A stretch of DNA of 64,000 bases. It comes from Aliiroseovarius sp. S1339 (GTDB lineage: Bacteria > Pseudomonadota > Alphaproteobacteria > Rhodobacterales > Rhodobacteraceae). The position numbers and the translations under genes are program-made. Below are positions 19,254 to 31,318 of this stretch, one piece after another (within the stretch, counting starts at the first letter, position 1; every line of letters starts with the position of its first letter). The DNA lies in assembly GCF_023195695.1 (NCBI RefSeq), contig NZ_JALPQG010000006.1, forward strand, positions 186,001 to 250,000, read 5' to 3'. The notes under the pieces were generated by a model, which worked only from the letters and a program-made list of their open reading frames with translations, did no database searches and was not told the DNA's origin.

Positions 19254-21296
19254 TTAGATATCCTTGACCAACCGTAGCGCGTCATAGATCGCCGCATGGG
19301 TGTTGCGCGCAGATACCGCATCACCGATCCGGAAAAGCTGAAACGCGCCGTCTGGATTGGTGCGGATCGACTGCGGGCGACCCTCGATCAGGGCGGCTTG
19401 ATCCACTTCGCCACGGTTCACGGACGTCTCTTTCAGATCGAAATAAAGGTCCGCCATCGGCAACGTGCCGTAGTTGACCACCACCTGATCATAGGTCGCT
19501 TCGCGGGTGTAATCTGAATAGTCCGTGCCAAGGGTCACACGCAGGCGGTTGCCATCTCGTGCGATGTCCAGCAGCCGCTCGGTCACGGTGAACCGCACGC
19601 CTTTGGGTTGGAGCGACCGCATGTAGGGCACCAAGTTCATCGCCATGATGTCAGGGGCGAAGACGCGATCAGGCGTCATCACCTCGACTGTGGCCCCTGC
19701 CTCGGCGGCAATTTCGGCGGCTTGCAGCGCCGGATGGTCCCCGCTTTCGTCGTAGATCAGCACATCACCTGCGCATTTCACGTCGCCCGCGATCACATCC
19801 CACGCGCTGACGGCCAAGTCCTGATCGCCCTTGCTTTCAAACAGCTCAAGGTTCGGCAGGCCGCCGGTGGCGACAATCACCACATCCGGGTCCAGCGCCG
19901 TCACGTCATCGGCTTCCGCCCATGTGTTGAAATGAAACGTTACATCCCGCGCGGCACATTGCGCCATGCGCCAGTCGATGATCCCGATCATCTCGCGCCG
20001 ACGCGGGGTTTGGGCGGTCAGGCGCACCTGCCCACCGGGGTTGGGTTGCGCCTCAAAAACGGTCACATCATGACCACGCTCGGCGGCGACGCGGGCGGCT
20101 TCCAGCCCGGCCGGACCAGCACCGACGATCACGACTTTACGGTTCTGGGGGGCGGTTTTGACCACATGCGGCATCGTCAATTCGCGCCCGGTGGCGGCAT
20201 TGTGGATGCACAACGCATCGCCCGCCTGATAGATACGGTCCAGACAGTAGGTCGCGCCGACGCAGGGGCGGATATCATCCTCGCGCCCCTCGACGATCTT
20301 CTGCACGATATGGGGGTCAGCCATGTGCGCGCGCGTCATGCCCACCATATCGAGCTGGCCCGAGGAAATTGCATGACGCGCCGTTGCCACGTCAGGGATA
20401 CGGGCGGCGTGAAAGGTCGGCATACCGACTTCAGCGCGCACCCGCCCGGCAAAATCCAGGTGCGGCGACGAGGGCGCGCCCTGAATGGGGATCATATCTG
20501 TCATCGCCGGGTCCGTATGAATGCGCCCGCGGTTGATGTTCAGATAATCCACCTGCCCGCTATCGCGCAGCATCTTGGCAATCTCCATGCCCATTTCCGG
20601 GTCAATGCCACCGTCCTGAGCTTCGTCCGGGGCAAAACGCACGCCGAGGATAAATTCATTGCCGACGCGTCCACGCACGGCATCAATGATGTCCATCGTC
20701 AGTCGCATCCGCCCTGTCAGATCACCGCCGTAGGGTCCATCGAGACGGTTGGTAAGGGGCGAAATGAACTGATCCAGCAAATGCCCATGGGTCATGATCT
20801 CGACCCCATCCATGCCGCCCTCTTTCATCCGCTCAGCCGCGTCGGCAAAATCGGAAATGATGCGGGTGATATCCCAGTCCTCTGCCAATTTTGGAAAAGC
20901 GCGGTGGGCCGGTTCACGGTGCGGTGTGGAACAGACCGGCGGCAACCAGTCGCCTTTGTTCCAACCCGTGCGCCGCCCAAGATGGGTCAGCTGGATCATG
21001 CAGGCCGCGCCATGTTCATGGACAGCATCGGTTAGGTTCCTGATCCACGGCACCACCTCGTCCTTATAGGCGAGGATGTTGTTGAAGACGGGTGGGCTGT
21101 CCTTTGACACCGCCGCCGACCCTGCCGTCATCGCCATCGCGACGCCGGCCTTGGCACGTTCCGCGTGATAGGCCGCATAGCGTTCCTTGGGCATTCCATC
21201 TTCGGGATAGGCCGGTTCATGGCTGGTGGTCATGATCCGATTACGCAGTATCAGGTGGCCCAATTGATAGGGCTGCAATAGAGGATCAGTGGACAT
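19254..21296 (-). CDS. FMN/FAD oxidoreductase of the TMADH / dimethylglycine (N-methylproline) demethylase family
   Basis: 680 residues in the two-domain old-yellow-enzyme plus NAD(P)/FAD layout of trimethylamine dehydrogenase and 2,4-dienoyl-CoA reductase. The FMN barrel occupies about residues 1-340 (QLTHLGRRTGW, GGMDGVEIMTHGHLLDQF with SPLTNRLDGPYGG). A cluster segment with C345, C351 and C363 follows. The FAD/ADP-binding domain begins VVIVGAGPAGLEAARVAAERG. The cluster motif reads C-V-G-A-x-Y-C, so the second cysteine of the usual C-x2-C-x2-C is alanine. By similarity it resembles DgcA/N-methylproline demethylases, which remove N-methyl groups from methylated amines. The ATG at 21296 follows AAGGAAG. 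It lies 24 bases behind mttB-like, in one operon. Confidence 0.85.
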   Translation of the reverse strand: MSTDPLLQPYQLGHLILRNRIMTTSHEPAYPEDGMPKERYAAYHAERAKAGVAMAMTAGSAAVSKDSPPVFNNILAYKDEVVPWIRNLTDAVHEHGAACMIQLTHLGRRTGWNKGDWLPPVCSTPHREPAHRAFPKLAEDWDITRIISDFADAAERMKEGGMDGVEIMTHGHLLDQFISPLTNRLDGPYGGDLTGRMRLTMDIIDAVRGRVGNEFILGVRFAPDEAQDGGIDPEMGMEIAKMLRDSGQVDYLNINRGRIHTDPAMTDMIPIQGAPSSPHLDFAGRVRAEVGMPTFHAARIPDVATARHAISSGQLDMVGMTRAHMADPHIVQKIVEGREDDIRPCVGATYCLDRIYQAGDALCIHNAATGRELTMPHVVKTAPQNRKVVIVGAGPAGLEAARVAAERGHDVTVFEAQPNPGGQVRLTAQTPRRREMIGIIDWRMAQCAARDVTFHFNTWAEADDVTALDPDVVIVATGGLPNLELFESKGDQDLAVSAWDVIAGDVKCAGDVLIYDESGDHPALQAAEIAAEAGATVEVMTPDRVFAPDIMAMNLVPYMRSLQPKGVRFTVTERLLDIARDGNRLRVTLGTDYSDYTREATYDQVVVNYGTLPMADLYFDLKETSVNRGEVDQAALIEGRPQSIRTNPDGAFQLFRIGDAVSARNTHAAIYDALRLVKDI

Positions 21297-21320
21297 GGTC
21301 GTCTTCCTTAAAACCAAGCA

Positions 21321-22877
21321 TTAATACCAAGCATCGTCCATGGACGCCTTCTTGCGGGCTATGTACTCTTTCAGGGCATCGTCAACAGCGGCGTCGATGG
21401 GCGGCGCCTCATAGGCAGCTAACTGGGCCTTCCAGCGCAAATTGGCACGAGCGGCCATATCAACCTCGCCCTGCTCATCCCACGTTTCCCATGGTTGATG
21501 GTCGTCCAAGGCACTGTCGTAATAGGCGGTTTTGTAGTGGCGCATCGTGTGGGCGGTTGAGAACAGATGCTCGCCCGGCCCCTTTTCGGCCAGCGCGTCG
21601 AAGCCCAAAGTATCCTCGTTCACCACAACCCCGTCCAGATAGGCGTGAAGCGCGCCACAAAGATCGAGGTCGAGCATGAATTTCTCGTAAGACATCGACA
21701 GCAATCCATCCAGGAACCCTGCTGAATGCAGCAGGTAATTCGCGCCGCTGTGGATAGCCGACATCATCGACATCATGGCTTGCTGCATCGCCTGTGCATC
21801 TGGTAGTTTCGAGGTCGAGAAGTTGCCTGCGCAGCGCAGGGGCAAGTTCAGACGACGCGCAAGTTGGCCAAAGACCAGACTGCCCACCGCCGCCTCGGAC
21901 GTTCCAAATGTGGGTGACCCGGATCGCAAAGACATGGTGCTTAGGAAACTTGCCAGCACAACCGGTGCGCCGGGGCGTTCAAGTTGGGCGATTGCACAAG
22001 ATACCATGCTTTCGGCCAGACATTGTGCCGCCGACCCCGCCATGGTCAGGGGCGACACTGCGCCACCAAGCAAGAACGGCAAGTGGATCGACCCCTGCCC
22101 CGCCTTCGCATATTCGCGAATACCTTGCGAGGTCACACCGTCAATCACCAACGGGCTGGTCGTATTGAAATTGCCCATGATCACGCAATTCTGATCTACG
22201 AAATCTGCCCCGAACAGGATGCGGCACATCTCGACGCTATCGGCGGCACGCTCGGGCGCTGTGACCGACCCAAGGAAGGGCCGGTTAGAATACCGCATGT
22301 GCGAATAGACCATATCCAGATGGCGCTTGTTCACCGGGATGTCGGTCGGCTCGCACACTGTGCCGCCAGAATGGTGCAGCCAAGGGCTCATTTGGCCCAA
22401 CTTCACGAAGTTCTGGAAGTCCTCAAGCGTGCCGTATCGCCGCCCCCGGTCCAGATCCATGACGAAGGGGCTGCCATAGGATGGTGCGAACACCACGTTG
22501 TCACCGCCGATTTGCACATTGTTGGCCGGGTTGCGCGCGTGCTGGGTGAATTCAGCCGGGGCAGTTTTCAGGATTTCGCGGATCATGCCGGGGGCGAATT
22601 TGATGTTCCGGCGCGTGGGGTCAATATCTGTGACCTGCCCGCCCGCCTTGCGAAACATCTCGACCGTGTCCGGATCGTCGCGAAACTCGATCCCGATCTC
22701 GGCCATGATGCGGTCTGCGGTCGCCTCAATCTGCTCAAGCGCATCATCGCCCAGAATATCGTAAGTGGGGATACCGCGTTTGATGAACGGACGTTCCAGA
22801 TGCGGGTTCTGCCCCGGCTGACTGTCACGCTGTCCACGGGTGCTGCTGCGACGACGTCGCTTGATCACTTCGTTCAT
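21321..22877 (-). CDS. Trimethylamine methyltransferase (MttB) family protein, non-pyrrolysine type
   Basis: 518 residues of the MttB superfamily, corrinoid-dependent methyltransferases acting on quaternary or tertiary amines. It has the TIM-barrel signatures ALEQIEATADRIMAEIGIEF, YGTLEDFQNFVKLGQMSP, GNFNTTSPLVIDG, LLGGAVSPLTMAGSAAQCLAE and GSPTFGTSEAAVGSLVFGQLAR. No in-frame TAG interrupts the gene, so it belongs to the pyrrolysine-lacking branch whose known members demethylate betaines such as glycine betaine or proline betaine. No corrinoid (MttC-like) protein gene is adjacent. The ATG at 22877 has GGGAGG 5 bases upstream; a longer start is unsupported. It is divergent from tetR. Confidence 0.88.
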   Translation of the reverse strand: MNEVIKRRRRSSTRGQRDSQPGQNPHLERPFIKRGIPTYDILGDDALEQIEATADRIMAEIGIEFRDDPDTVEMFRKAGGQVTDIDPTRRNIKFAPGMIREILKTAPAEFTQHARNPANNVQIGGDNVVFAPSYGSPFVMDLDRGRRYGTLEDFQNFVKLGQMSPWLHHSGGTVCEPTDIPVNKRHLDMVYSHMRYSNRPFLGSVTAPERAADSVEMCRILFGADFVDQNCVIMGNFNTTSPLVIDGVTSQGIREYAKAGQGSIHLPFLLGGAVSPLTMAGSAAQCLAESMVSCAIAQLERPGAPVVLASFLSTMSLRSGSPTFGTSEAAVGSLVFGQLARRLNLPLRCAGNFSTSKLPDAQAMQQAMMSMMSAIHSGANYLLHSAGFLDGLLSMSYEKFMLDLDLCGALHAYLDGVVVNEDTLGFDALAEKGPGEHLFSTAHTMRHYKTAYYDSALDDHQPWETWDEQGEVDMAARANLRWKAQLAAYEAPPIDAAVDDALKEYIARKKASMDDAWY

Positions 22878-22914
22878 CGCAACCTCCCTTTTGCGAGTCA
22901 CACTCTTTACATAT

Positions 22915-22942
22915 CTGTCATCCCATTTGACAGTTGTGTCAA
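22915..22942. promoter_or_regulatory. Two overlapping inverted repeats, probable TetR operator
   Basis: The first repeat is CTGTCA-N7-TGACAG at 22915-22933. The second is TTGACA-GTTG-TGTCAA at 22927-22942. They share the TGACA half-site at 22928-22932, giving three TGTCA/TGACA half-sites. The site covers the -35 boxes of both divergent genes, as expected for a repressor operator. The function is inferred. Confidence 0.65.
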
Positions 22943-22954
22943 GTTTTCTAAGAT
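22927..22954 (+). promoter_or_regulatory. Predicted tetR promoter (leaderless transcript)
   Basis: A consensus -35 TTGACA (22927-22932), a 16-base spacer and -10 TAAGAT (22949-22954). The expected start of transcription falls on or within a base or two of the A of the tetR ATG at 22961, and there is no ribosome-binding site. The mirror-image TTGACA at 22942-22937 could serve the divergent mttB-like gene, although its -10 is weak. Confidence 0.55.
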
Positions 22955-22960
22955 GCGGGC

Positions 22961-23578
22961 ATGAACAAGATTACCCCAACCCGCCCGCGTGCCTCCGATC
23001 AAATGTGGCTGGATGCAGCTTTGGAATTGCTGATTGAGGCTGGCGTGGACGCCGTAAAAGTCATGCCGTTGGCGAAGCAGCTTGGGCTGACCCGCACCGG
23101 TTTCTATCATCATTTTCGCGATCGAGAGGCGTTGCTGGACGCGATGATCGCGCGGTGGGAAGATAAGAACACCGGCAACCTGATCGCCCGGTGCGAGGCT
23201 TACGCCGAGACGATTTGCGAGGCGATGTTCAACCTTCAGGACTGCTGGATCGACCGATCCCTTTTCGACGCCCCGCTGGATCATGCAATCCGCAGCTGGG
23301 CGCGCCATGACCCACCTTTGAAGCAACGTCTGGACCAAGCGGATGCGCGGCGAAAAGCAGCGGTGCTCGCGATGTTTCGACGGTTTGGGTATGCTAGGGG
23401 CGACGCCGAAATACGAGCGATGACGATCCTTTACACGCAGGTCGGATACATCTCGATGGAGGTCGAAGAAGATCCCGCCCGTCGCATCAACCGCGTTCCC
23501 GCTTACGTAGAGCTTTTCACCGGTGAAACACCTTCAAAGAGGGAAATTGACCGGTTCCGCACCAGAAACGGATATTGA
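22961..23578 (+). CDS. TetR/AcrR family transcriptional regulator
   Basis: 205 residues. The N-terminal DNA-binding domain is complete: WLDAALELLIEAGVDAVKV, then the helix-turn-helix MPLAKQLGLTRTGFYHHF and RDREALLDAMI. The C-terminal part is a ligand-binding helical domain with WARHDPPLKQRLDQADARR, of the kind seen in several environmental TetR proteins; the effector is unknown. It is divergent from the mttB-like operon, with the operator-like palindromes between them. It lies 84 bases upstream of the hydrolase-rdhA pair on the same strand, so it probably controls both arms and itself. Confidence 0.9.
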   Translation: MNKITPTRPRASDQMWLDAALELLIEAGVDAVKVMPLAKQLGLTRTGFYHHFRDREALLDAMIARWEDKNTGNLIARCEAYAETICEAMFNLQDCWIDRSLFDAPLDHAIRSWARHDPPLKQRLDQADARRKAAVLAMFRRFGYARGDAEIRAMTILYTQVGYISMEVEEDPARRINRVPAYVELFTGETPSKREIDRFRTRNGY

Positions 23579-23662
23579 CTCCAATAGGGGGGTAGCACCC
23601 CATTCCCGTCCATGCTCAATTGATTCCATTGCGAACAGAATGACTTGCGGAGGGGGCCGCAC

Positions 23663-25318
23663 ATGGCGCCAAACATCCTTTTCATCATGTATGACCAGCT
23701 GCGGTTCGACTACCTTAGCTGCGCTGGACACCCGACGCTTGAGACGCCGAATTTCGACCGGGTCGCCGCGCGGGGCGTGCGGTTTGATCGCGCCTATTGC
23801 CAATCGCCCGTCTGTGGCGCCAGCCGGATGAGCACATATACCGGGCGTTACGTGTCCTCGCACGGAGCGGCACACAACAACTTCCCATTGAAGGTCGGCG
23901 AGATGACGATGGGCGACCATCTGCGCAAGGCCGGGATGGCATGCTGGTTGATCGGCAAGACCCATATGAAGGCCGACGCCGAAGGGATGGTGCGCCTTGG
24001 CCTGTCGCCGGACAGCGTGATCGGTGCGCGCGTTGAGGAATGCGGCTTTGATGTGCGGATCAGGGACGACGGTTTGTGGGCTGAAGGACCCGACGGGTTT
24101 TATGACCAGAAACGCTCGCCCTATAACGAATACCTTAAAGCCAAAGGATATCCGGCTGATAACCCGTGGCACGACAATGCGAATGCGGGCCTAACGGATG
24201 CAGGCGATATCGCATCGGGTTTTCTGATGATGCACGCCGACAAGCCCGCCAATATCCGCGAAAAAGACAGTGAAACGCCATGGCTGACCGGGCGCACGAT
24301 TGACTTTTTCGAGGCACAGAAAGGCAAAGGCCCGTGGTGCGCCCATGTCAGTTTCATCAAGCCCCACTGGCCCTATATCGTGCCCGCGCCCTATCACGAT
24401 ATGTATGGGCATAACCACATCAAGCCGGTCGTTCGGTCCGAGGACGAACGCCGCGACCCCCACCCCGTCTTTGGCGCGTATATGGAGGGCGGCGTCGGGC
24501 AAGCCTTTTCGCGCGACGAGGTGCGCGAGACGGTGATCCCCGCCTATATGGGCCTGATCAAGCAATGCGACGACCAACTTGGGCGGCTGCTGGATTATCT
24601 TGATGACAACGGGCTGGCGGACGATACCGTGATCGTGCTTACCTCGGATCACGGCGATTATCTGGGCGATCATTGGATGGGGGAAAAGGACCTGTTTCAC
24701 GACCCCTCGGTTCGTGTGCCGTTGATCATCGCCGATCCACGCGCGCAGGCTGACGCGACCCGCGGCACGGTCTGCGACAAGCTGGTCGAACAGATCGACC
24801 TCGCCGCCACGTTTGTCGAGATGGCGGGCGGCGAGGTGCCACGCCACATCCTTGAAGGTCGGTCGTTGCTGCCACTTCTGGAAGGACGCGACACAGACTG
24901 GCGCGACTTTGCGGTGAGTGAATATGATTTCTCAACTTCTGGCGCGGCCACAAAACTTGGGCTTGCGCCAAAAGATTGTCGTCTGTTCATGATCGCCACC
25001 GACCGCTGGAAGATGATGCATGCAGAAGGTGGGTTTCGGCCAATGCTGTTCGATCTGCACAATGACCCGGATGAACTGACCGATCTGGGTGCATCCAAGG
25101 ATCATGCCGCTATCATCGAAACGCTCTATGACCACCTGTTCACGTGGGCCCGCCGTCAATCCCAACGCACCACCATATCTGACGCGCAGATCGAGGCGCG
25201 GCGCAAAGGAGGCTCAGGCCGCGTCGGTATTCTGCTGGGCCTGTTCGGTGACGAAGACATCCCCGAAGAATATCTGTCCAAATACACCGGCCCGGCGACC
25301 AAGTCAGAGCCCAACTGA
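23663..25318 (+). CDS. Sulfatase-family hydrolase, phosphonate monoester hydrolase-like
   Basis: 551 residues of the alkaline-phosphatase superfamily, formylglycine-dependent branch. Metal-binding N-terminus is NILFIMYDQLRFDYL. The modification motif is C51-G-A-S-R, with STYTGR after it, so Cys51 should become formylglycine. The second metal site is TSDHGDYLGDHWMGEKDLFHD. The single Asp in YDQ-R and the C-terminal region (DWRDFAVSEYDF, LFDLHNDPDELTDLG, TWARRQSQRTTIS) resemble phosphonate monoester hydrolases/phosphodiesterases more than classical arylsulfatases. Substrate may therefore be a sulfate ester, phosphate diester or phosphonate ester. There is no signal peptide, so it is cytoplasmic. 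GGAGGGGG precedes the ATG. It ends one base before rdhA. Confidence 0.87.
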   Translation: MAPNILFIMYDQLRFDYLSCAGHPTLETPNFDRVAARGVRFDRAYCQSPVCGASRMSTYTGRYVSSHGAAHNNFPLKVGEMTMGDHLRKAGMACWLIGKTHMKADAEGMVRLGLSPDSVIGARVEECGFDVRIRDDGLWAEGPDGFYDQKRSPYNEYLKAKGYPADNPWHDNANAGLTDAGDIASGFLMMHADKPANIREKDSETPWLTGRTIDFFEAQKGKGPWCAHVSFIKPHWPYIVPAPYHDMYGHNHIKPVVRSEDERRDPHPVFGAYMEGGVGQAFSRDEVRETVIPAYMGLIKQCDDQLGRLLDYLDDNGLADDTVIVLTSDHGDYLGDHWMGEKDLFHDPSVRVPLIIADPRAQADATRGTVCDKLVEQIDLAATFVEMAGGEVPRHILEGRSLLPLLEGRDTDWRDFAVSEYDFSTSGAATKLGLAPKDCRLFMIATDRWKMMHAEGGFRPMLFDLHNDPDELTDLGASKDHAAIIETLYDHLFTWARRQSQRTTISDAQIEARRKGGSGRVGILLGLFGDEDIPEEYLSKYTGPATKSEPN

Positions 25319-25319
25319 C

Positions 25320-28300
25320 ATGCGGCTGTTTTCCACCAAAAACCGCCCGGCCCATCTGGGCCCTTATCCGCTTGAACGGCTGGAAAGAATGAGCGGAGCA
25401 CCGGACCTATCCAATGTTCCACCACAACGGCCTGTGCGATTTGATCGCTCCGACAAGCCCGAAAACATCGTAAATGCGATGGCACCCTATCAGGCCGCGC
25501 TGGATGCGATCCGTGATGGCGACGTGAACCCGGTTCAGTCCACCATCCCTGATGATCACATCACGCGCGCCGAGCATCTGAAAGCATTTGGCTATTTCTC
25601 GGATGCGTCACTGGTGGGTATCGCGGATATACACGCGGACGATCTGCTGGATCAGCCGATTGCGAACCGCGGTATCGACGCCCTTGTGGCATCGCTTGAC
25701 ACCCGCGAGGTGCGCACGCTGGCCGCTGGCATCGACACGTTGATGGCCGAGTTGCGCGACAGCCTTGGCGCGACACGTCGTCCGGTCAGCGCCCACCGGC
25801 ACGCGCTTGTGTTCTTGTATGAATACCACCGCGACCCCAGACCGGACGAGCCGGGGTCAGAATGGATCACGGACGCACAAGACCAACGTGCCTGCCTGCT
25901 TGGGGCCGAGACAGCGATTGTCATCGCAAACTACATCCGCCTTCTGGGGTTTGACGCCAAAGCGCATACGGGGGCTGCCACCGATGTTGACCTCAACCGT
26001 CTGGCGATTACCGCAGGATTGACCACAGTCGAAGATGGCCAGCTTGTGGCCCCGTGGATTGGCCCGCGGTTCGGATTGGCAGCCGTGACCACTGAGATGG
26101 CGCTGCAGCCGGATCAGCCGCTTGCCCCTTTGCACAAGCAACCTTGGCACAAGACCAACGGGCCTGCCTGGTGGCTTGGCACCGGAACCGTGAAGTCAGC
26201 TCTGAACCGCGACCCTTACGCCAAGCGCGACTATGCGATGGGCGCGCATCCGTTTGAACGCCTAAAACGGGTCGGCAGCCCGACCACCTATATCGACGAG
26301 CCAAACGTCGCCCGTGTACCTAAACGCGCCGACATGTTTGCTCGCGCGCAATTTGGGGACATGGGAAAGCACCTGCAGGAATGTTCGTCAGGTGGGTATT
26401 ATGTGCGCAAGGCGGCACCAAGCTATGCCCAGCGGCGAGCTTTGGGGGTGCTGACACCCCTACAAGACGGCCCGGTCAACGATCTGCTCCACCGCCCCAG
26501 CGACCCGACCGAAAATGCAGCCGCGCTGAAGGCGGCCAGTTATTTCCTAAGCATTGACGCAGTGGGCACCAGCCGCTGCCCGGACTGGGTGTGGTACAGC
26601 CACGACGCGACGGGGGCCGAAATCACGCCTCCGCATAACCACGCCGTTTCGATGATCGTGGATCAGGGGTTTGAAACGATGGAGGGCGCGTCAGGTGATG
26701 ACTGGATTGCCGTCAGCCAATCCATGCGCGCTTATCTGCGGTTTTCCCTAATCGGTGGCGTGATTGCGCAGCAGATCCGAAACCTCGGCTTTTCGGCCAA
26801 GGCGCATACCGTGATGGACGGCGCTGTCCTGCAACCGCCTCTGCTTCTTTTGGCCGGGTTGGGCGAGGTCAGCCGGATTGGCGAGGTCATCCTGAACCCC
26901 TATCTCGGCCCGCGCCTGAAGTCGGGCGTGGTGACGACCGATATGCCGATAGCGCATGACAAACCGATCGACTTCGGTCTGCAACGGTTCTGCGAAGCCT
27001 GCAACAAGTGCGCGCGGGAATGCCCGTCGGGCGCGATCACCGCCGGGCCAAAGCTGATTTTCAACGGGTATGAAATCTGGAAATCAGACAGCCAGAAGTG
27101 CACCACCTATCGCGTGACGCAACCGGGTGGTGCGATGTGCGGGCGGTGTATGAAAACATGTCCTTGGAACCTTGAAGGGCTGTTCGCGCAAGCGCCGTTC
27201 CGGTGGGCGGCATCAAACCTGCCGGGGGCGGCACCGATCTTGGCCAAGCTGGACGATGCGGTGGGCAATGGCGAGTTGAACGACATAAAGAAGTGGTGGT
27301 GGGATCTGAAGCTGGGCGCGGATGGCGGGTATCACCCAACAGACAACCCGGTGAACAGACGCGGCCTCAACCGCGATCTGGACCTTAGATACGAAGATCA
27401 GACCCTTGCCGTTTATCCCGCCTCGCTGGCCCCGCCGCCCTATCCGTATCCCTTCCCGATGGATCGCGAGGCGGGCATCGCCGCGTATCAAGCGATGATC
27501 CCGGCACGTGATTATCGCGCACGACTGGGTGCGAGCGACCGCTCCATGATCAACCAATATACGGTTTCGGAAGATACCCCTGTGTTGCAGCTTGTCGTCA
27601 ACCGGATTGAGCCGATGACAAGCGACATTACCAAATATGAATTCGCCGCCCTTGATGGCGCACCGCTACCAGAATGGACCGCCGGAGCGCATCTGGACGT
27701 GCTGGTGTCGCCGGATTTCCTACGTCAGTATTCATTGTCGGGCGATCCGGCGGACCGAAAGACCTATGAAATCGGCGTCCTGCGTGAACCCGATGGCCGT
27801 GGTGGGTCGGCGCTGTTGCACCGTATTTTCACCGAGGGCCGCAAAGTGTTCGTCGCCAAGCCGATCAACCATTTTGAACTGGACGAGAGTGCGACAAAAA
27901 CCTTGCTGATGGGCGGCGGTATCGGCATCACGCCGATGATCGCCTTTGCCCACCGCTTGCACGCCATCGGTGCAGATTTCGTGCTCCATTACTCGGCCAG
28001 CCGTCGCGCGGATGCGGGCTTTCTAAAGGATCTCGCGTCCATGCCATGGGCAGACCATGTGCATCTTCATTTCTCGGATGAAGGCACGCGGGCTGATTTC
28101 GATGCGGTTCTCGCAGGCGCCCCCCACGGCACCCATGTTTATTGCTGCGGGGCCGATCGTTATATGAGCGCCGTGATGGAGGCCGCCGAACGGCAAGATA
28201 TCCCCGAAAACGCGCGGCACTTGGAGTATTTCAACCCGCCTGAACAGCCAGAGTATGAAAACCATCCCTTCACCATCAAACTGAAAGATGGTCGTCGGGT

Positions 28301-28526
28301 TGAAGTGCACGAAGATCAGACCGCTGCTGATGCCCTGAACGCTGCGGGCATCCACGTGGATGTGAAGTGCGCGGACGGACTTTGTGGCGTGTGCAAATGC
28401 GGCGTCATCGCAGGCTTGGTCGAGCATCGCGATTTCGTGCTGTCAAACGCTCAGCGCAACGACGCGATGATCCTGTGCCAAAGCCGGGCAGCAGACCCGG
28501 AGGGTGAGATCGAACTGGACCTTTGA
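25320..28526 (+). CDS. rdhA: Self-sufficient (catabolic, cytoplasmic) reductive dehalogenase: RdhA fused to FMN/NAD/[2Fe-2S] reductase
   Basis: 1068 residues. The N-terminal half has two related nitroreductase-like segments (about 78-268 and 394-545), the second expected to bind cobalamin. Next come two bacterial-ferredoxin cluster motifs, C558-x2-C-x2-C-x3-C568-P and C594...C607-x2-C610-x3-C614-P. From about 770 there is a phthalate-dioxygenase-reductase-type module: flavin motif R802-Q-Y-S-L-S, nucleotide motif GGGIGITPM at 865-873, and a plant-type [2Fe-2S] site C1017-x4-C1022-x2-C1025...C1053. This is the architecture of Comamonas BhbA and Nitratireductor NpRdhA, which remove ortho halogens from phenolic compounds using NAD(P)H. 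No Tat signal and no RdhB anchor are present. The start ATG at 25320 follows the hydrolase stop by one base; an upstream in-frame extension overlaps the hydrolase and is rejected. Confidence 0.9.
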   Translation: MRLFSTKNRPAHLGPYPLERLERMSGAPDLSNVPPQRPVRFDRSDKPENIVNAMAPYQAALDAIRDGDVNPVQSTIPDDHITRAEHLKAFGYFSDASLVGIADIHADDLLDQPIANRGIDALVASLDTREVRTLAAGIDTLMAELRDSLGATRRPVSAHRHALVFLYEYHRDPRPDEPGSEWITDAQDQRACLLGAETAIVIANYIRLLGFDAKAHTGAATDVDLNRLAITAGLTTVEDGQLVAPWIGPRFGLAAVTTEMALQPDQPLAPLHKQPWHKTNGPAWWLGTGTVKSALNRDPYAKRDYAMGAHPFERLKRVGSPTTYIDEPNVARVPKRADMFARAQFGDMGKHLQECSSGGYYVRKAAPSYAQRRALGVLTPLQDGPVNDLLHRPSDPTENAAALKAASYFLSIDAVGTSRCPDWVWYSHDATGAEITPPHNHAVSMIVDQGFETMEGASGDDWIAVSQSMRAYLRFSLIGGVIAQQIRNLGFSAKAHTVMDGAVLQPPLLLLAGLGEVSRIGEVILNPYLGPRLKSGVVTTDMPIAHDKPIDFGLQRFCEACNKCARECPSGAITAGPKLIFNGYEIWKSDSQKCTTYRVTQPGGAMCGRCMKTCPWNLEGLFAQAPFRWAASNLPGAAPILAKLDDAVGNGELNDIKKWWWDLKLGADGGYHPTDNPVNRRGLNRDLDLRYEDQTLAVYPASLAPPPYPYPFPMDREAGIAAYQAMIPARDYRARLGASDRSMINQYTVSEDTPVLQLVVNRIEPMTSDITKYEFAALDGAPLPEWTAGAHLDVLVSPDFLRQYSLSGDPADRKTYEIGVLREPDGRGGSALLHRIFTEGRKVFVAKPINHFELDESATKTLLMGGGIGITPMIAFAHRLHAIGADFVLHYSASRRADAGFLKDLASMPWADHVHLHFSDEGTRADFDAVLAGAPHGTHVYCCGADRYMSAVMEAAERQDIPENARHLEYFNPPEQPEYENHPFTIKLKDGRRVEVHEDQTAADALNAAGIHVDVKCADGLCGVCKCGVIAGLVEHRDFVLSNAQRNDAMILCQSRAADPEGEIELDL

Positions 28527-28534
28527 ATGCCCCA

Positions 28535-29923
28535 TCAAGAAGCGTGTTCAACTTCCTTGGGCAAGGTCAGAAGGAACGACGTGCCATCCGGGCCTGACCT
28601 TTCTAACTCAAGCGTGCCGCCATGGCCGCGCACAAGCTCAGCTGCGATGGCCAGACCCAGACCCGAGCCGCCTTTCCGGTTGGTACCGGCGAAGGGTTGA
28701 AACAGATGTTCCTGCGACATCTTTGGAAGTCCCGGCCCGGTATCCACAACCCGAATTTGCCAGTCTTGGTCCGTCTCAACCGCCTGCACGGCGATCTCGC
28801 CCGGTTTGCCGGTTGCGACGATGGCTTGGCGTGCATTGCGTACAAGGTTCAAAAGCACGCGATACAACTGTTCGGGATCGGCCCGCAGGGTAAGACCGGT
28901 CGGGATATCCTCGGCGAACGAAAGGTCATGATCGCCCGCTGCAAGCCGTTCGCTGTCAAATATGTCGCTCGCCAAATCGGCCAATCCAATCCAGCCCAAT
29001 GCCGGTGCAGGCTCTTCGGCCTTGCCAAAGGTCAACGTGTTCTCGCAAAGGCTGACGGCGCGGTGGATCGAGTTCACTAGTTTTGGCCCCACCCGTTTGA
29101 CCATCGGGTCTTCGCTGTTTTCCATGCGGTCGGCAAACAGTTGCGCGGTGGTCAGGATGTTTCGCAAGTCGTGACTGATCCGCGCAATAGCCCCGCCCAA
29201 CTGCGCTAGGCGTTCTTTTTGTTTCAAAGCGCCCGTCAGGTCCGTCTGAAGGCTTTTCAACGCCAGCTCTGCATCGCGCAGTTCGGTGACATTGGTTCCG
29301 GGCTGGATAATTCGACGCGCGTCTTCCGGGTCGATCGCATAGTCTTTCATGTTGCCGACCAACCGTTTGATCGGACGCACCATAAGCGAGCGCACGGCCA
29401 GAAACAGAAGGCTGGCGGTGATCACCGAGATAACCGCCGACAGGTAAAGAATATTCAAGCCGTAGTCGATCATCGCACTGCGCAACTTGCCAGTCATCAT
29501 GGTGATTTCAATGACCAAACCGCCTGCGCGCACAGGGTCGCCGATCACGCGGATCACCTCGGGTTCGGGTGCAAACAAGCGCGCCATCGCATCGCGGATC
29601 AGGGTAAGCGGCGTTGACTGGCGCAAATCAAAGCTTTTATCGACTGCCGCTGGCATGGGCGAAGACAACATCAACTCGCGCACCTCGTCGCGGCGCAGCA
29701 CCACGTTATAGACCTCGGCGTTTTCCAGCAGTTCGGCTTCCAGTTCCGGGGCGATCATGTCGTCGGCCAGCAGCACAAGAGATGCGATTTGCGCGCGTTC
29801 CAGCCGGGTTCTCAGGTAATCCTCGCGAAAGCGCGCGACCGAGGGCACGAAGATCAACACTTCGGCCAGCATGACGAACAGTGTCGTCAAGATCAGGAAA
29901 CGGCCTGAAAGAGTGTTCAACAC
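28535..29923 (-). CDS. Sensor histidine kinase, orphan
   Basis: 462 residues. Two membrane helices flank a periplasmic sensor domain (about residues 8-28 and 155-178), followed by a HAMP-like linker (RSLMVRPIKRLVGNM). The phosphoacceptor motif is ARISHDLRNILTTAQ, the N-box LLNLVRNARQAI, G1 VVDTGPGLP and G2 KGGSGLGLAIAAEL, so the kinase core looks intact. The start is GTG at 29923 after GGCGGAG. No response-regulator gene is adjacent on either side, so its partner is elsewhere. It converges with rdhA across 8 bases, and a link to it is not implied. Confidence 0.87.
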   Translation of the reverse strand: MLNTLSGRFLILTTLFVMLAEVLIFVPSVARFREDYLRTRLERAQIASLVLLADDMIAPELEAELLENAEVYNVVLRRDEVRELMLSSPMPAAVDKSFDLRQSTPLTLIRDAMARLFAPEPEVIRVIGDPVRAGGLVIEITMMTGKLRSAMIDYGLNILYLSAVISVITASLLFLAVRSLMVRPIKRLVGNMKDYAIDPEDARRIIQPGTNVTELRDAELALKSLQTDLTGALKQKERLAQLGGAIARISHDLRNILTTAQLFADRMENSEDPMVKRVGPKLVNSIHRAVSLCENTLTFGKAEEPAPALGWIGLADLASDIFDSERLAAGDHDLSFAEDIPTGLTLRADPEQLYRVLLNLVRNARQAIVATGKPGEIAVQAVETDQDWQIRVVDTGPGLPKMSQEHLFQPFAGTNRKGGSGLGLAIAAELVRGHGGTLELERSGPDGTSFLLTLPKEVEHAS

Positions 29924-29947: not shown

Positions 29948-31318
29948 TTACGGTAGAACCTTTTGCACCAGTCCGACAATCCGCTTAACCCAAGGGTTAT
30001 CAAACAGTCGCGGCGAGAAATAGGCCCCTGCTGCGCGTTTGCTGACTTCCGCCATCGTGGGGTATGGCGCGACCATAGCCGCGATCTGCCCCATTTTCAG
30101 CTTGTTGGCCAAGGCCAGCACCCAAAGGTTGATCATTTCGCCCGCCCCCGGCCCAACAATTGACACCCCCACGGGCCGCCCTTTGACCACCATGACCTTG
30201 ATCAGCCCGTTGGTTTGCTGCGTCGCGATCGCGCGGTCATTGCCAGCGAAATCGAACCGTGCGACTTCGACCTTGTCGCCATGTTCCTCATGCGCCTGTG
30301 CCTCGGTCAGACCAATTTGCGCCATTTCAGGTGAGGTGTAGGTGGCCCACGGGATATGATCCGTGCGGGATTTTGACGGCAGACCGAACAGCATTGACCG
30401 GATGATCACGCCAGCATGATAGCCCGCCACATGGGTAAACTGCAGCCCACCCGCCACGTCGCCAATGGCATAGACCCTGCGGTTGGTCGTGCGCAGGCCC
30501 ACGTCCACCTTGATGCCCGCGCGCGTGGGCTCAATACCTGCGGCCTCCAGATTTAGCTTGTCGGTGTTGGCTTTACGCCCCACCGCAACCAGCAGGTGCG
30601 AGCCTTTGAAGGCGCGCCCGTCTTTGACCTCGACCTCAATCGCACCGACCTTGCCACGAACCTCAGCGGCCAGCGCCTCTTCTTCAATGGCGATGCCTTC
30701 GTCTCGCAGAGCATCTAGCACCTGCGCGACCATTTCCGGGTCGTCATTGCCCAGCGCCTTCGCACCTTCGATCACCGTCACCTCACAGCCCAGCCGCCGA
30801 TGCGCCTGCGCCATTTCCATGCCAATCGGACCGCCACCGATGATCAGCAGGTGCTTGGGCTGTTCTTTCAAATCAAAAAGGGTCTCGTTCGTTAGATGCG
30901 GCACCTTGTCCAACCCCGGAATGGGCGGCACCAAGGGCGACGATCCGGTGGCTATCACGAAGCGGCGCGCCTCGATTATATGGTCGCCCGCTTCGACCTC
31001 GGTTGGCGAAGTAAAACGGCCATAGTCCTGAATGACACGCACGCCCAGCCCTTCGAACCGCTCAACCGAGTCGTGCGGTTCAATAGTCGCGATGGTCTGG
31101 CGCACATGGGCGTGGGCCTCGTCCCAGCCCATGCCCGACTTTGCCGCGTGCAGCAGCGCTTTTGATGGCACACAGCCATAGTTCAGGCAGTCGCCGCCCA
31201 TTTTGTGACCTTCCAGCAGTACAACGGAGGCGCCCATCTGAACCGCGCCCGACGCCACCGACAAACCACCTGATCCGCCCCCGATGACGCAAACATCAAC
31301 CTTGATACGTTCGGCCAT
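29948..31318 (-). CDS. Pyridine nucleotide-disulfide oxidoreductase, mercuric-reductase-like
   Basis: 456-residue flavoprotein with FAD motif VIGGGSGGLSVASGA, redox-active disulfide GGDCLNYGCVPSKALLHA (about 42-59), NAD motif LIIGGGPIGMEMAQAHRRLG, and the second FAD motif YAIGDVAGG. In the C-terminal interface the dihydrolipoamide-dehydrogenase His-Pro pair is replaced by Tyr in APYPTMAEVSKRA, as in mercuric reductases, but the vicinal Cys pair of MerA's C-terminus is absent. A role in lipoamide or mercury chemistry is therefore unlikely to be simple. It follows the TVP38 gene with a one-base gap, a pairing also known from other proteobacteria. Confidence 0.85.
   Translation of the reverse strand: MAERIKVDVCVIGGGSGGLSVASGAVQMGASVVLLEGHKMGGDCLNYGCVPSKALLHAAKSGMGWDEAHAHVRQTIATIEPHDSVERFEGLGVRVIQDYGRFTSPTEVEAGDHIIEARRFVIATGSSPLVPPIPGLDKVPHLTNETLFDLKEQPKHLLIIGGGPIGMEMAQAHRRLGCEVTVIEGAKALGNDDPEMVAQVLDALRDEGIAIEEEALAAEVRGKVGAIEVEVKDGRAFKGSHLLVAVGRKANTDKLNLEAAGIEPTRAGIKVDVGLRTTNRRVYAIGDVAGGLQFTHVAGYHAGVIIRSMLFGLPSKSRTDHIPWATYTSPEMAQIGLTEAQAHEEHGDKVEVARFDFAGNDRAIATQQTNGLIKVMVVKGRPVGVSIVGPGAGEMINLWVLALANKLKMGQIAAMVAPYPTMAEVSKRAAGAYFSPRLFDNPWVKRIVGLVQKVLP

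Follow-up and report, generated by a model that had tools for sequence, protein, structure and literature searches.

The DNA analysed here, referred to as the window, is a stretch of 64,000 nucleotides from Aliiroseovarius sp. S1339 (contig NZ_JALPQG010000006.1, positions 186,001 to 250,000), whose genus agrees with the marine-type alphaproteobacterial host supposed in a preliminary description made from the letters alone. It carries rdhA, which encodes a self-sufficient reductive dehalogenase uniting an RdhA catalytic part and a phthalate dioxygenase reductase (PDOR)-like module. The enzyme is read as an ordinary, well-preserved member of the known catabolic RdhA-PDOR fusion type, and its gene follows directly behind that of a predicted arylsulfatase. 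Across the family Rhodobacteraceae, a partnership of rdhA with this arylsulfatase is well supported at the level of gene presence, and the positional support for the link is suggestive once control genes are used.

The frame opens with an ATG at 25320 and runs to 28526 on the forward strand, giving 1068 amino acids without an internal stop in an open-reading-frame check. A mechanical reading extends it further upstream to a GTG at 25089; the ATG is preferred because this extra part overlaps the sulfatase frame and because the near-full-length matches listed from other genomes begin at query residues 1-4. The frame is not due to chance, since another Aliiroseovarius genome has a copy with 84% identity over residues 1-1067 and homologues with an E-value of 1e-100 or better occur in 151 of the 394 family genomes sampled at about one per genus (150 of 393 genera). 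The NCBIfam reductive dehalogenase model TIGR02486 scores 185.9 bits, above its curated cut-off of 160.35, and epoxyqueuosine reductase (QueG), raised earlier as a possible better match, falls far short (TIGR00276, 23.5 bits against a cut-off of 200). By sequence, the best match in the PDB is NpRdhA (4ras, E 5.4e-159), with the best stretch at residues 158-739 and a second at 1-109, while residues 753-1064 match PDOR (2pia, E 5.3e-50) and also the reductase parts of self-sufficient P450s. These matches confirm the one-frame fusion of 1068 residues and, together with motifs found in the alignment, the intact reductase module that the preliminary description had claimed. An AlphaFold2 model has a moderate mean predicted local distance difference test score (pLDDT) of 74.6, with residues 1014-1058 under 50, and given this moderate value its domain arrangement was not used as evidence. 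Its 14 best PDB matches are NpRdhA chains (template modelling score 0.85-0.87 by target length, E 1e-59 to 1e-56), followed by self-sufficient P450s and 2pia.

The cofactor-binding and catalytic residues are preserved throughout the fusion class. All 12 cluster cysteines, namely C558, C561, C564, C568 and C594, C607, C610, C614 of the two [4Fe-4S] clusters and C1017, C1022, C1025, C1053 of the [2Fe-2S] cluster, are Cys in 85 of 85 aligned fusions, so the two ferredoxin-type motifs (C558-C568 and C594-C614) stand as first described. This alignment is confined to matches longer than 900 columns and free of stops, and it includes three same-genome duplicates, which were removed for the RdhA tree. 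Another alignment combined the window protein with 38 of the 80 named loci; L190, where the rdhA frame is interrupted, was excluded. The reductase module carries R802-x-Y804-S805, G866-G867-x-G869-x-T871 and C943-G944 in addition to its four cluster cysteines, and these motifs we take to bind flavin mononucleotide (FMN), NAD(P)H and [2Fe-2S]; the Y804 position is Y in 81 and F in four of the 85 fusions. In the catalytic part, F291, S422, M423, Y426, K488 and R552 of NpRdhA, whose active-site roles are taken from PMC7565698, correspond to F340, S468, M469, Y472, K534 and R598 of the window protein, and all six are identical in every aligned fusion, BhbA included. The halide-site Tyr, Lys and Arg (Y472, K534, R598), for which an alignment with BhbA and NpRdhA had been proposed, are thus all conserved. 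Several outer pocket residues differ from those of NpRdhA (F290 to M, K307 to S, F310 to Y, P311 to V, A419 to V, N452 to V).

Residues 76-269 align with the functional cobalamin-binding core at 392-551 (hhalign probability 99.6%, 31% identity over 158 columns), and this first copy has a Cys at the position of the catalytic Tyr. A vestigial duplicated cobalamin domain of this kind has been described for catabolic RdhAs (PMC10463259). No twin-arginine translocation (TAT) motif was seen on reading the N-terminus, MRLFSTKNRPAHLGP, and no RdhB membrane anchor was found among the scanned neighbour genes, although frames under about 100 amino acids were left unscanned and a small RdhB could escape. 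By the lack of a TAT motif and the duplicated core, the window RdhA is predicted to be cytosolic and of the catabolic rather than the respiratory class.

Among characterised relatives, JtRdhA of Jhaorihella thermophila (PMC10463259) shares this architecture, having no TAT signal, a duplicated cobalamin domain, two [4Fe-4S] clusters and a C-terminal reductase, and the active-site residues named in that paper are present in the window RdhA, as compared by description. JtRdhA uses NADPH and accepts bromo- and iodophenols for reduction; chlorinated analogues act on it only as inhibitors. Its activity has been characterised biochemically, that of the window RdhA is predicted from sequence, and the available parts of PMC10463259 mention no sulfatase, in contrast to the sulfatase neighbour in the window. 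On its conserved residues and by analogy with JtRdhA, the window RdhA is very probably a functional ortho-halophenol dehalogenase and is read as a debrominase; the brominated aromatic substrate first proposed stays the best guess, given the preference of JtRdhA. BhbA, encoded on plasmid pBHB of Comamonas sp. 7D-2, is likewise a full-length fusion, with 49% identity over 1065 columns and the same core catalytic residues. Its gene lies beside aromatic-degradation genes, in an annotated context that includes ligA, an extradiol dioxygenase beta subunit and also porins, and unlike the window, the 19 kb shown lists no sulfatase in what is an incomplete gene table. NpRdhA from Nitratireductor pacificus (4ras, 6zxu, 6zxx, 6zy0, 6zy1) has the same catalytic fold, at 43% identity over 681 columns, but unlike the window fusion it is a truncated type without a reductase module (PMC10463259). 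The earlier assignment to the catabolic type of BhbA and NpRdhA therefore holds for the class and for BhbA as a fusion, and fails where it made NpRdhA a fusion as well. Additionally, Ros_A3X954 of Roseobacter sp. MED193, a catabolic RdhA of a marine roseobacter, debrominates 2,6-dibromophenol (PMC13101508); with cluster motifs at 283-345 and a match to PF13486, it is probably far shorter and not a member of the fusion class.

The junction of the sulfatase and rdhA genes, absent from the preliminary description, reads TGA-C-ATG, with one base between the stop codon of the former and the start codon of the latter. The best PDB match of the sulfatase is 4UPL (E 5.6e-236, aligned over residues 8-548), and the frame at 23645-25318 is predicted to encode an arylsulfatase of that type. 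It has CGASR where 4UPL has CGSSR, presumably the formylglycine-type sulfatase motif, and none of the NCBIfam sulfatase models reaches its cut-off on it. The 4UPL structure is that of SpAS2, an arylsulfatase of Silicibacter pomeroyi that acts on p-nitrophenyl sulfate with a kcat/Km of 2.1e5 M-1 s-1 (PMC12421950). Choline formation from choline-O-sulfate was undetected for SpAS1 and SpAS2 (PMC5870055), and a link to a dehalogenase is unmentioned in the available parts of both papers.

The fusion type had been called rare, which does not hold for this family: rdhA is common here and often gained or lost. Presence was called with one E-value threshold per gene (rdhA 1e-100, sulfatase 1e-180). Homologues of rdhA are also found in 147 of 292 genomes of the order (47 of 112 genera); among the matches listed, most are near full length and one has an internal stop. 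On a YidC tree of 81 genera, built from 80 of the 234 genomes with a YidC match (74 alternate listed rows and six others) plus the window, the distribution of rdhA needs 28 changes. Of nine plasmid records matched, eight hold at least 80% of rdhA in one place, including BhbA on pBHB. Several copies stand out individually. Ruegeria sp. HKCCD8929 carries three rdhA fusions (L134, L159, L181), and Rhodobacteraceae-type fusions occur in contigs of metagenome-assembled genomes (MAGs) labelled Flavobacteriales and Granulosicoccaceae (L167, L176), by transfer or binning error. At five loci (L337, L340, L094, L110, L112), rdhA has a MarR-type regulator gene adjoining its start side, a possible local regulator.

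Homologues of the window sulfatase occur in 176 of the 394 genomes, and they are strongly associated with rdhA: 110 genomes have both genes, 41 only rdhA, 66 only the sulfatase and 177 neither (odds ratio (OR) 7.2, p 4e-19). In a 275-genome subset in which choline sulfatase served as a control, the association is maintained among choline-sulfatase-positive genomes (OR 7.4, p 6e-11), while choline sulfatase itself gives an OR with rdhA of 0.9 in arylsulfatase-negative and 2.4 (p 0.17) in arylsulfatase-positive genomes. Relatedness was taken into account on the 81-genus tree. Of 16 independent pairs differing in rdhA, the sulfatase differs the same way in an average of 9.2 and the opposite way in 1.5 (median p 0.039, range 0.001-0.34). 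Reciprocally, of 18 pairs differing in the sulfatase, rdhA follows in 9.5 and opposes in 1.4 (median p 0.0225, range 0.0005-0.27). The association across genera appears new: a full-text literature search, outside which most subscription papers lie, found no published link of a reductive dehalogenase with a sulfatase, also in combination with Rhodobacteraceae or bromophenol, its one hit concerning calf diarrhoea by title, and nothing on lanosol together with bacterial degradation or debromination.

The two genes also lie close together more often than uniform placement predicts. Among the matches listed, they are no more than 6 kb apart in the Aliiroseovarius genome itself (G000) and in G373, G064, G137, G176, G251 and G379, which gives five genera besides Aliiroseovarius, and G057 has them 9.7 kb apart. 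Uniform placement, calculated for 91-108 genomes of 3.9 Mb with 1.0-1.5 sulfatase copies, expects 0.32-0.57 close pairs (about 0.45), and five or more have a probability of 2e-5 to 3e-4. The distances were taken by eye from the rows listed, which include a sulfatase row in about 93 of the 110 genomes with both genes and a choline sulfatase row in 63 of the 90 rdhA genomes that have choline sulfatase. Within Aliiroseovarius, the pair is present in G000, G373 and G478. Some genomes recur as fetched loci (G478 is L122, G064 is L162 and G379 is L173), and each was counted once as a genus. Further close cases outside the sample are found in Ruegeria sp. HKCCD8929 (L181), Sulfitobacter sp. M05 (L185) and the MAG SAT2 (L190). 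The close pairs occur in several gene arrangements and are scattered on the RdhA tree, where they need 9 changes and cluster no more than shuffled labels. A single origin of the pair is not supported, in view of these 9 changes and of 5 changes on the sulfatase tree, 4 of which are forced by supported branches.

Some of these loci place rdhA among genes for aromatic degradation. In G379 (L227, 3161-15736), the order is ligA, ligB, an arylsulfatase, an alkylsulfatase-like metallo-hydrolase, a short-chain dehydrogenase/reductase, rdhA, a PIG-L/GalB-like gene, LigK and a LigI-like gene, interrupted by opposite-strand frames of 94 amino acids after ligB and 93 after LigK. LigK is called by TIGR02798 (351.7 bits, cut-off 304.5). 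The dehydrogenase is aryl-alcohol-dehydrogenase-like, its nearest model being coniferyl-alcohol dehydrogenase (227.9 bits against a cut-off of 242), and the nearest model of the LigI-like protein is 4-sulfomuconolactone hydrolase (207 bits against 500); the GalB and LigI readings are ones we take from general family knowledge. A close relative of this run is found at L190, with its rdhA reading frame interrupted. In Oricola nitratireducens (L157), rdhA is followed by a DUF1932 gene and genes for extradiol-dioxygenase-like (306 bits, cut-off 320.2), GalB-like and LigK-like proteins and 4-oxalomesaconate tautomerase (531.5 bits, cut-off 440). In Nitratireductor sp. OM-1, genes close to the RdhA fusion include pobA, genes for ring cleavage, a PIG-L gene and that of a LigK-type aldolase. 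At L181 of Ruegeria sp. HKCCD8929, TRAP transporter genes, an arylsulfatase, a sulfotransferase and an arylsulfotransferase (ASST) precede rdhA.

From these observations, the window RdhA is proposed to be a cytosolic, cobalamin-dependent and NAD(P)H-driven dehalogenase for ortho-bromo (or iodo) phenols that works downstream of the arylsulfatase, a reading for and against which the chances are evenly poised. The arylsulfatase would free the phenolic hydroxyl of a sulfated bromophenol, and the freed phenol would be bound above the cobalamin via K534, R598 and S468 with its bromine on the cobalt. Electrons would pass from NAD(P)H to the C-terminal FMN, the [2Fe-2S] cluster, the two [4Fe-4S] clusters and finally the cobalt, and Y472, with K534, would donate a proton to the ring carbon while bromide leaves. 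A sulfated bromophenol as the coupled substrate, suggested because a phenol of the kind RdhA is known to bind would be masked as its sulfate ester, has prospects slightly short of even. One such compound is lanosol-4,7-disulfate, which ranks among the major metabolites of the red alga Vertebrata lanosa (PMC9322897). Its conversion to protocatechuate would take the removal of two sulfates, one alcohol oxidation and the removal of two bromines, for which the G379 operon could supply the enzymes: two sulfatases would desulfate it, the aryl-alcohol dehydrogenase would oxidise the benzylic alcohol, RdhA would debrominate, and protocatechuate would enter 4,5-cleavage via LigAB and the LigI-like, GalB-like and LigK proteins. 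In its broadest and rather unlikely form, the proposal gives the Rhodobacteraceae RdhA fusions the debromination part in a two-part module that would desulfate and debrominate sulfated algal bromophenols, with a G379-type operon encoding the whole route and the window, with its arylsulfatase and RdhA, a minimal version.

A number of observations weigh against this proposal. At the presence level, 41 of the 151 rdhA genomes lack the sulfatase at E 1e-180, choline sulfatase is itself associated with rdhA in the 275-genome subset (OR 2.1, p 0.021), and among the 67 choline-sulfatase-negative genomes the rdhA-arylsulfatase association is not significant (OR 2.8, p 0.11). The tree-test controls lean likewise (choline sulfatase 2.9 versus 1.0, the MttB family 3.5 versus 0.6), non-significantly and with few informative pairs. 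Close pairs outside Aliiroseovarius, 5 of 91 for the sulfatase among the matches listed, do not significantly exceed those of choline sulfatase (0 of 62, p 0.071) or of MttB at 60% identity or more (0 of 21, p 0.35), and an MttB gene at 55% identity adjoins rdhA in G200. Of 61 loci examined, about one per genus, rdhA was called in 60, and no conserved rdhA operon was found among them: no neighbour family is present in more than six, most copies do not stand beside a sulfatase, and in 33 loci the nearest gene on the same strand is more than 100 bases away. No Pfam family is common to the 50 close same-strand partners, which come from 26 loci; the commonest occurs in five of the 50. These neighbour counts are approximate, as gene calling used a simple GC-position method that missed rdhA in L113 and in five of the 80 named loci. 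Even within Aliiroseovarius, G528 has a TetR gene and rdhA without the sulfatase. The chemistry also raises doubts, as full debromination of lanosol by RdhA alone is uncertain because the name 2,3-dibromo-5-hydroxybenzyl-1',4-disulfate (PMC9322897) puts only one bromine ortho to a phenolic oxygen. PobA is not over its cut-off in the Aliiroseovarius genome, and that genome, 99.99% complete, has no match to CobN or BtuB and no CobJ over its cut-off; cobalamin may be salvaged via another importer, or the pathway forms may escape these models.

The co-occurrence could stem from a shared marine or algal lifestyle. RdhA would then be a free-standing debrominase that acts on free halophenols in detoxification or scavenging, and the sulfatase link would reflect algae-associated marine life and shared accessory regions rather than a joint pathway. 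Such an explanation agrees with the varied neighbourhoods and the copies without close same-strand partners, with the repeated gain or loss on the 81-genus tree and the plasmid copies, with sulfatase proximity that is not significantly over the control genes, and with the activity of JtRdhA without a partner protein (PMC10463259). It does not readily account for an association that persists in choline-sulfatase-positive genomes and in the tree-aware test, nor for close pairs in five further genera above uniform expectation, and it is judged a real though lesser possibility. Alternatively, the sulfatase may serve the divergent cassette of old yellow enzyme (OYE)-like, MttB and TetR genes located upstream of it, acting for example on a sulfated methylated amine, with rdhA inserted behind as a promoter passenger. 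In G173, this cassette is followed by a sulfatase after its TetR gene and rdhA is on another contig, and TetR stands beside MttB in 11 of 15 other fetched MttB loci, none of which has rdhA. However, MttB, counted at 60% identity or more, is uncorrelated with the sulfatase (OR 0.99) and with rdhA (OR 0.71, p 0.23) across the 394 genomes, the sulfatase-rdhA pair of G373 stands apart from the cassette, which is on another contig there, and SpAS2 does not cleave choline sulfate (PMC5870055), all of which make service to the cassette improbable. A third explanation, that the protein is no dehalogenase and has moved on to a different reduction, whether epoxyqueuosine-like, a dehydroxylation or some other, could draw on the outer pocket changes K307 to S, F310 to Y, A419 to V and N452 to V and on the Pfam Dehalogenase model PF13486, which has no match in the window RdhA protein; a PF13486 search of the whole genome was equally silent in all 14 control genomes and is hence uninformative. 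Set against the six active-site residues kept in 85 of 85 fusions and the low QueG score, such a drift is very unlikely.

Nearly four in ten sampled genera carry rdhA, often without close partners, and its neighbours are seldom informative. The natural substrates of marine RdhA fusions are not stated in the literature consulted, and a statistically associated sulfatase would narrow the candidates to sulfated bromophenols such as lanosol-4,7-disulfate. If the proposed coupling is true, an aerobic step that depends on cobalamin and takes place in common marine bacteria would be connected with the bromine and sulfate-ester chemistry of algae, and the cobalamin for the enzyme may come from other organisms. 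Separately, a genome that encodes a cobalamin-dependent enzyme type, RdhA, without a CobN match, a BtuB equivalog or CobJ over its cut-off may belong to a cobalamin auxotroph with an unrecognised importer.

Table 1. Features of the rdhA region, in window positions.
Feature	Position	Strand	Detail
OYE-like flavin oxidoreductase	19254-21317	-	
MttB family protein, non-pyrrolysine type	21321-22901	-	
TetR-type regulator upstream of sulfatase	22961..23578	+	
Predicted arylsulfatase of SpAS2 (4UPL) type	23645..25318	+	probable ATG 23663; 4UPL match, CGASR motif
rdhA, predicted self-sufficient catabolic reductive dehalogenase, RdhA part and PDOR-like module	25320..28526	+	1068 aa
Vestigial N-terminal duplicate of cobalamin-binding core	25545..26126	+	residues 76-269; hhalign
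Functional cobalamin-binding core	26493..26972	+	residues 392-551; S468, M469, Y472, K534 (NpRdhA S422, M423, Y426, K488)
Two [4Fe-4S] cluster motifs	26991..27170	+	residues 558-617, incl. R598 (NpRdhA R552); alignment
FMN/NAD(P)H/[2Fe-2S] reductase module, PDOR type	27576..28511	+	residues 753-1064; 2pia match
Histidine kinase	28535-29923	-	
FAD-disulfide oxidoreductase	29948-31318	-	

Across the window, no Rfam family reaches its gathering score, which leaves no cobalamin riboswitch at that threshold, and no tRNA genes were found; a promoter and terminator scan gave counts equal to those of shuffled sequence and was not used. MttB is not supported as a functional partner, for its lack of co-occurrence with either gene over the 394 genomes. 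TetR does not in general act as a dedicated regulator of rdhA, given that it travels with MttB and OYE; within the window it may control rdhA. The OYE-like and MttB genes divergent from TetR (19254-23578) form a recurrent cassette, with an OYE relative beside MttB in 13 of the 15 other MttB loci.

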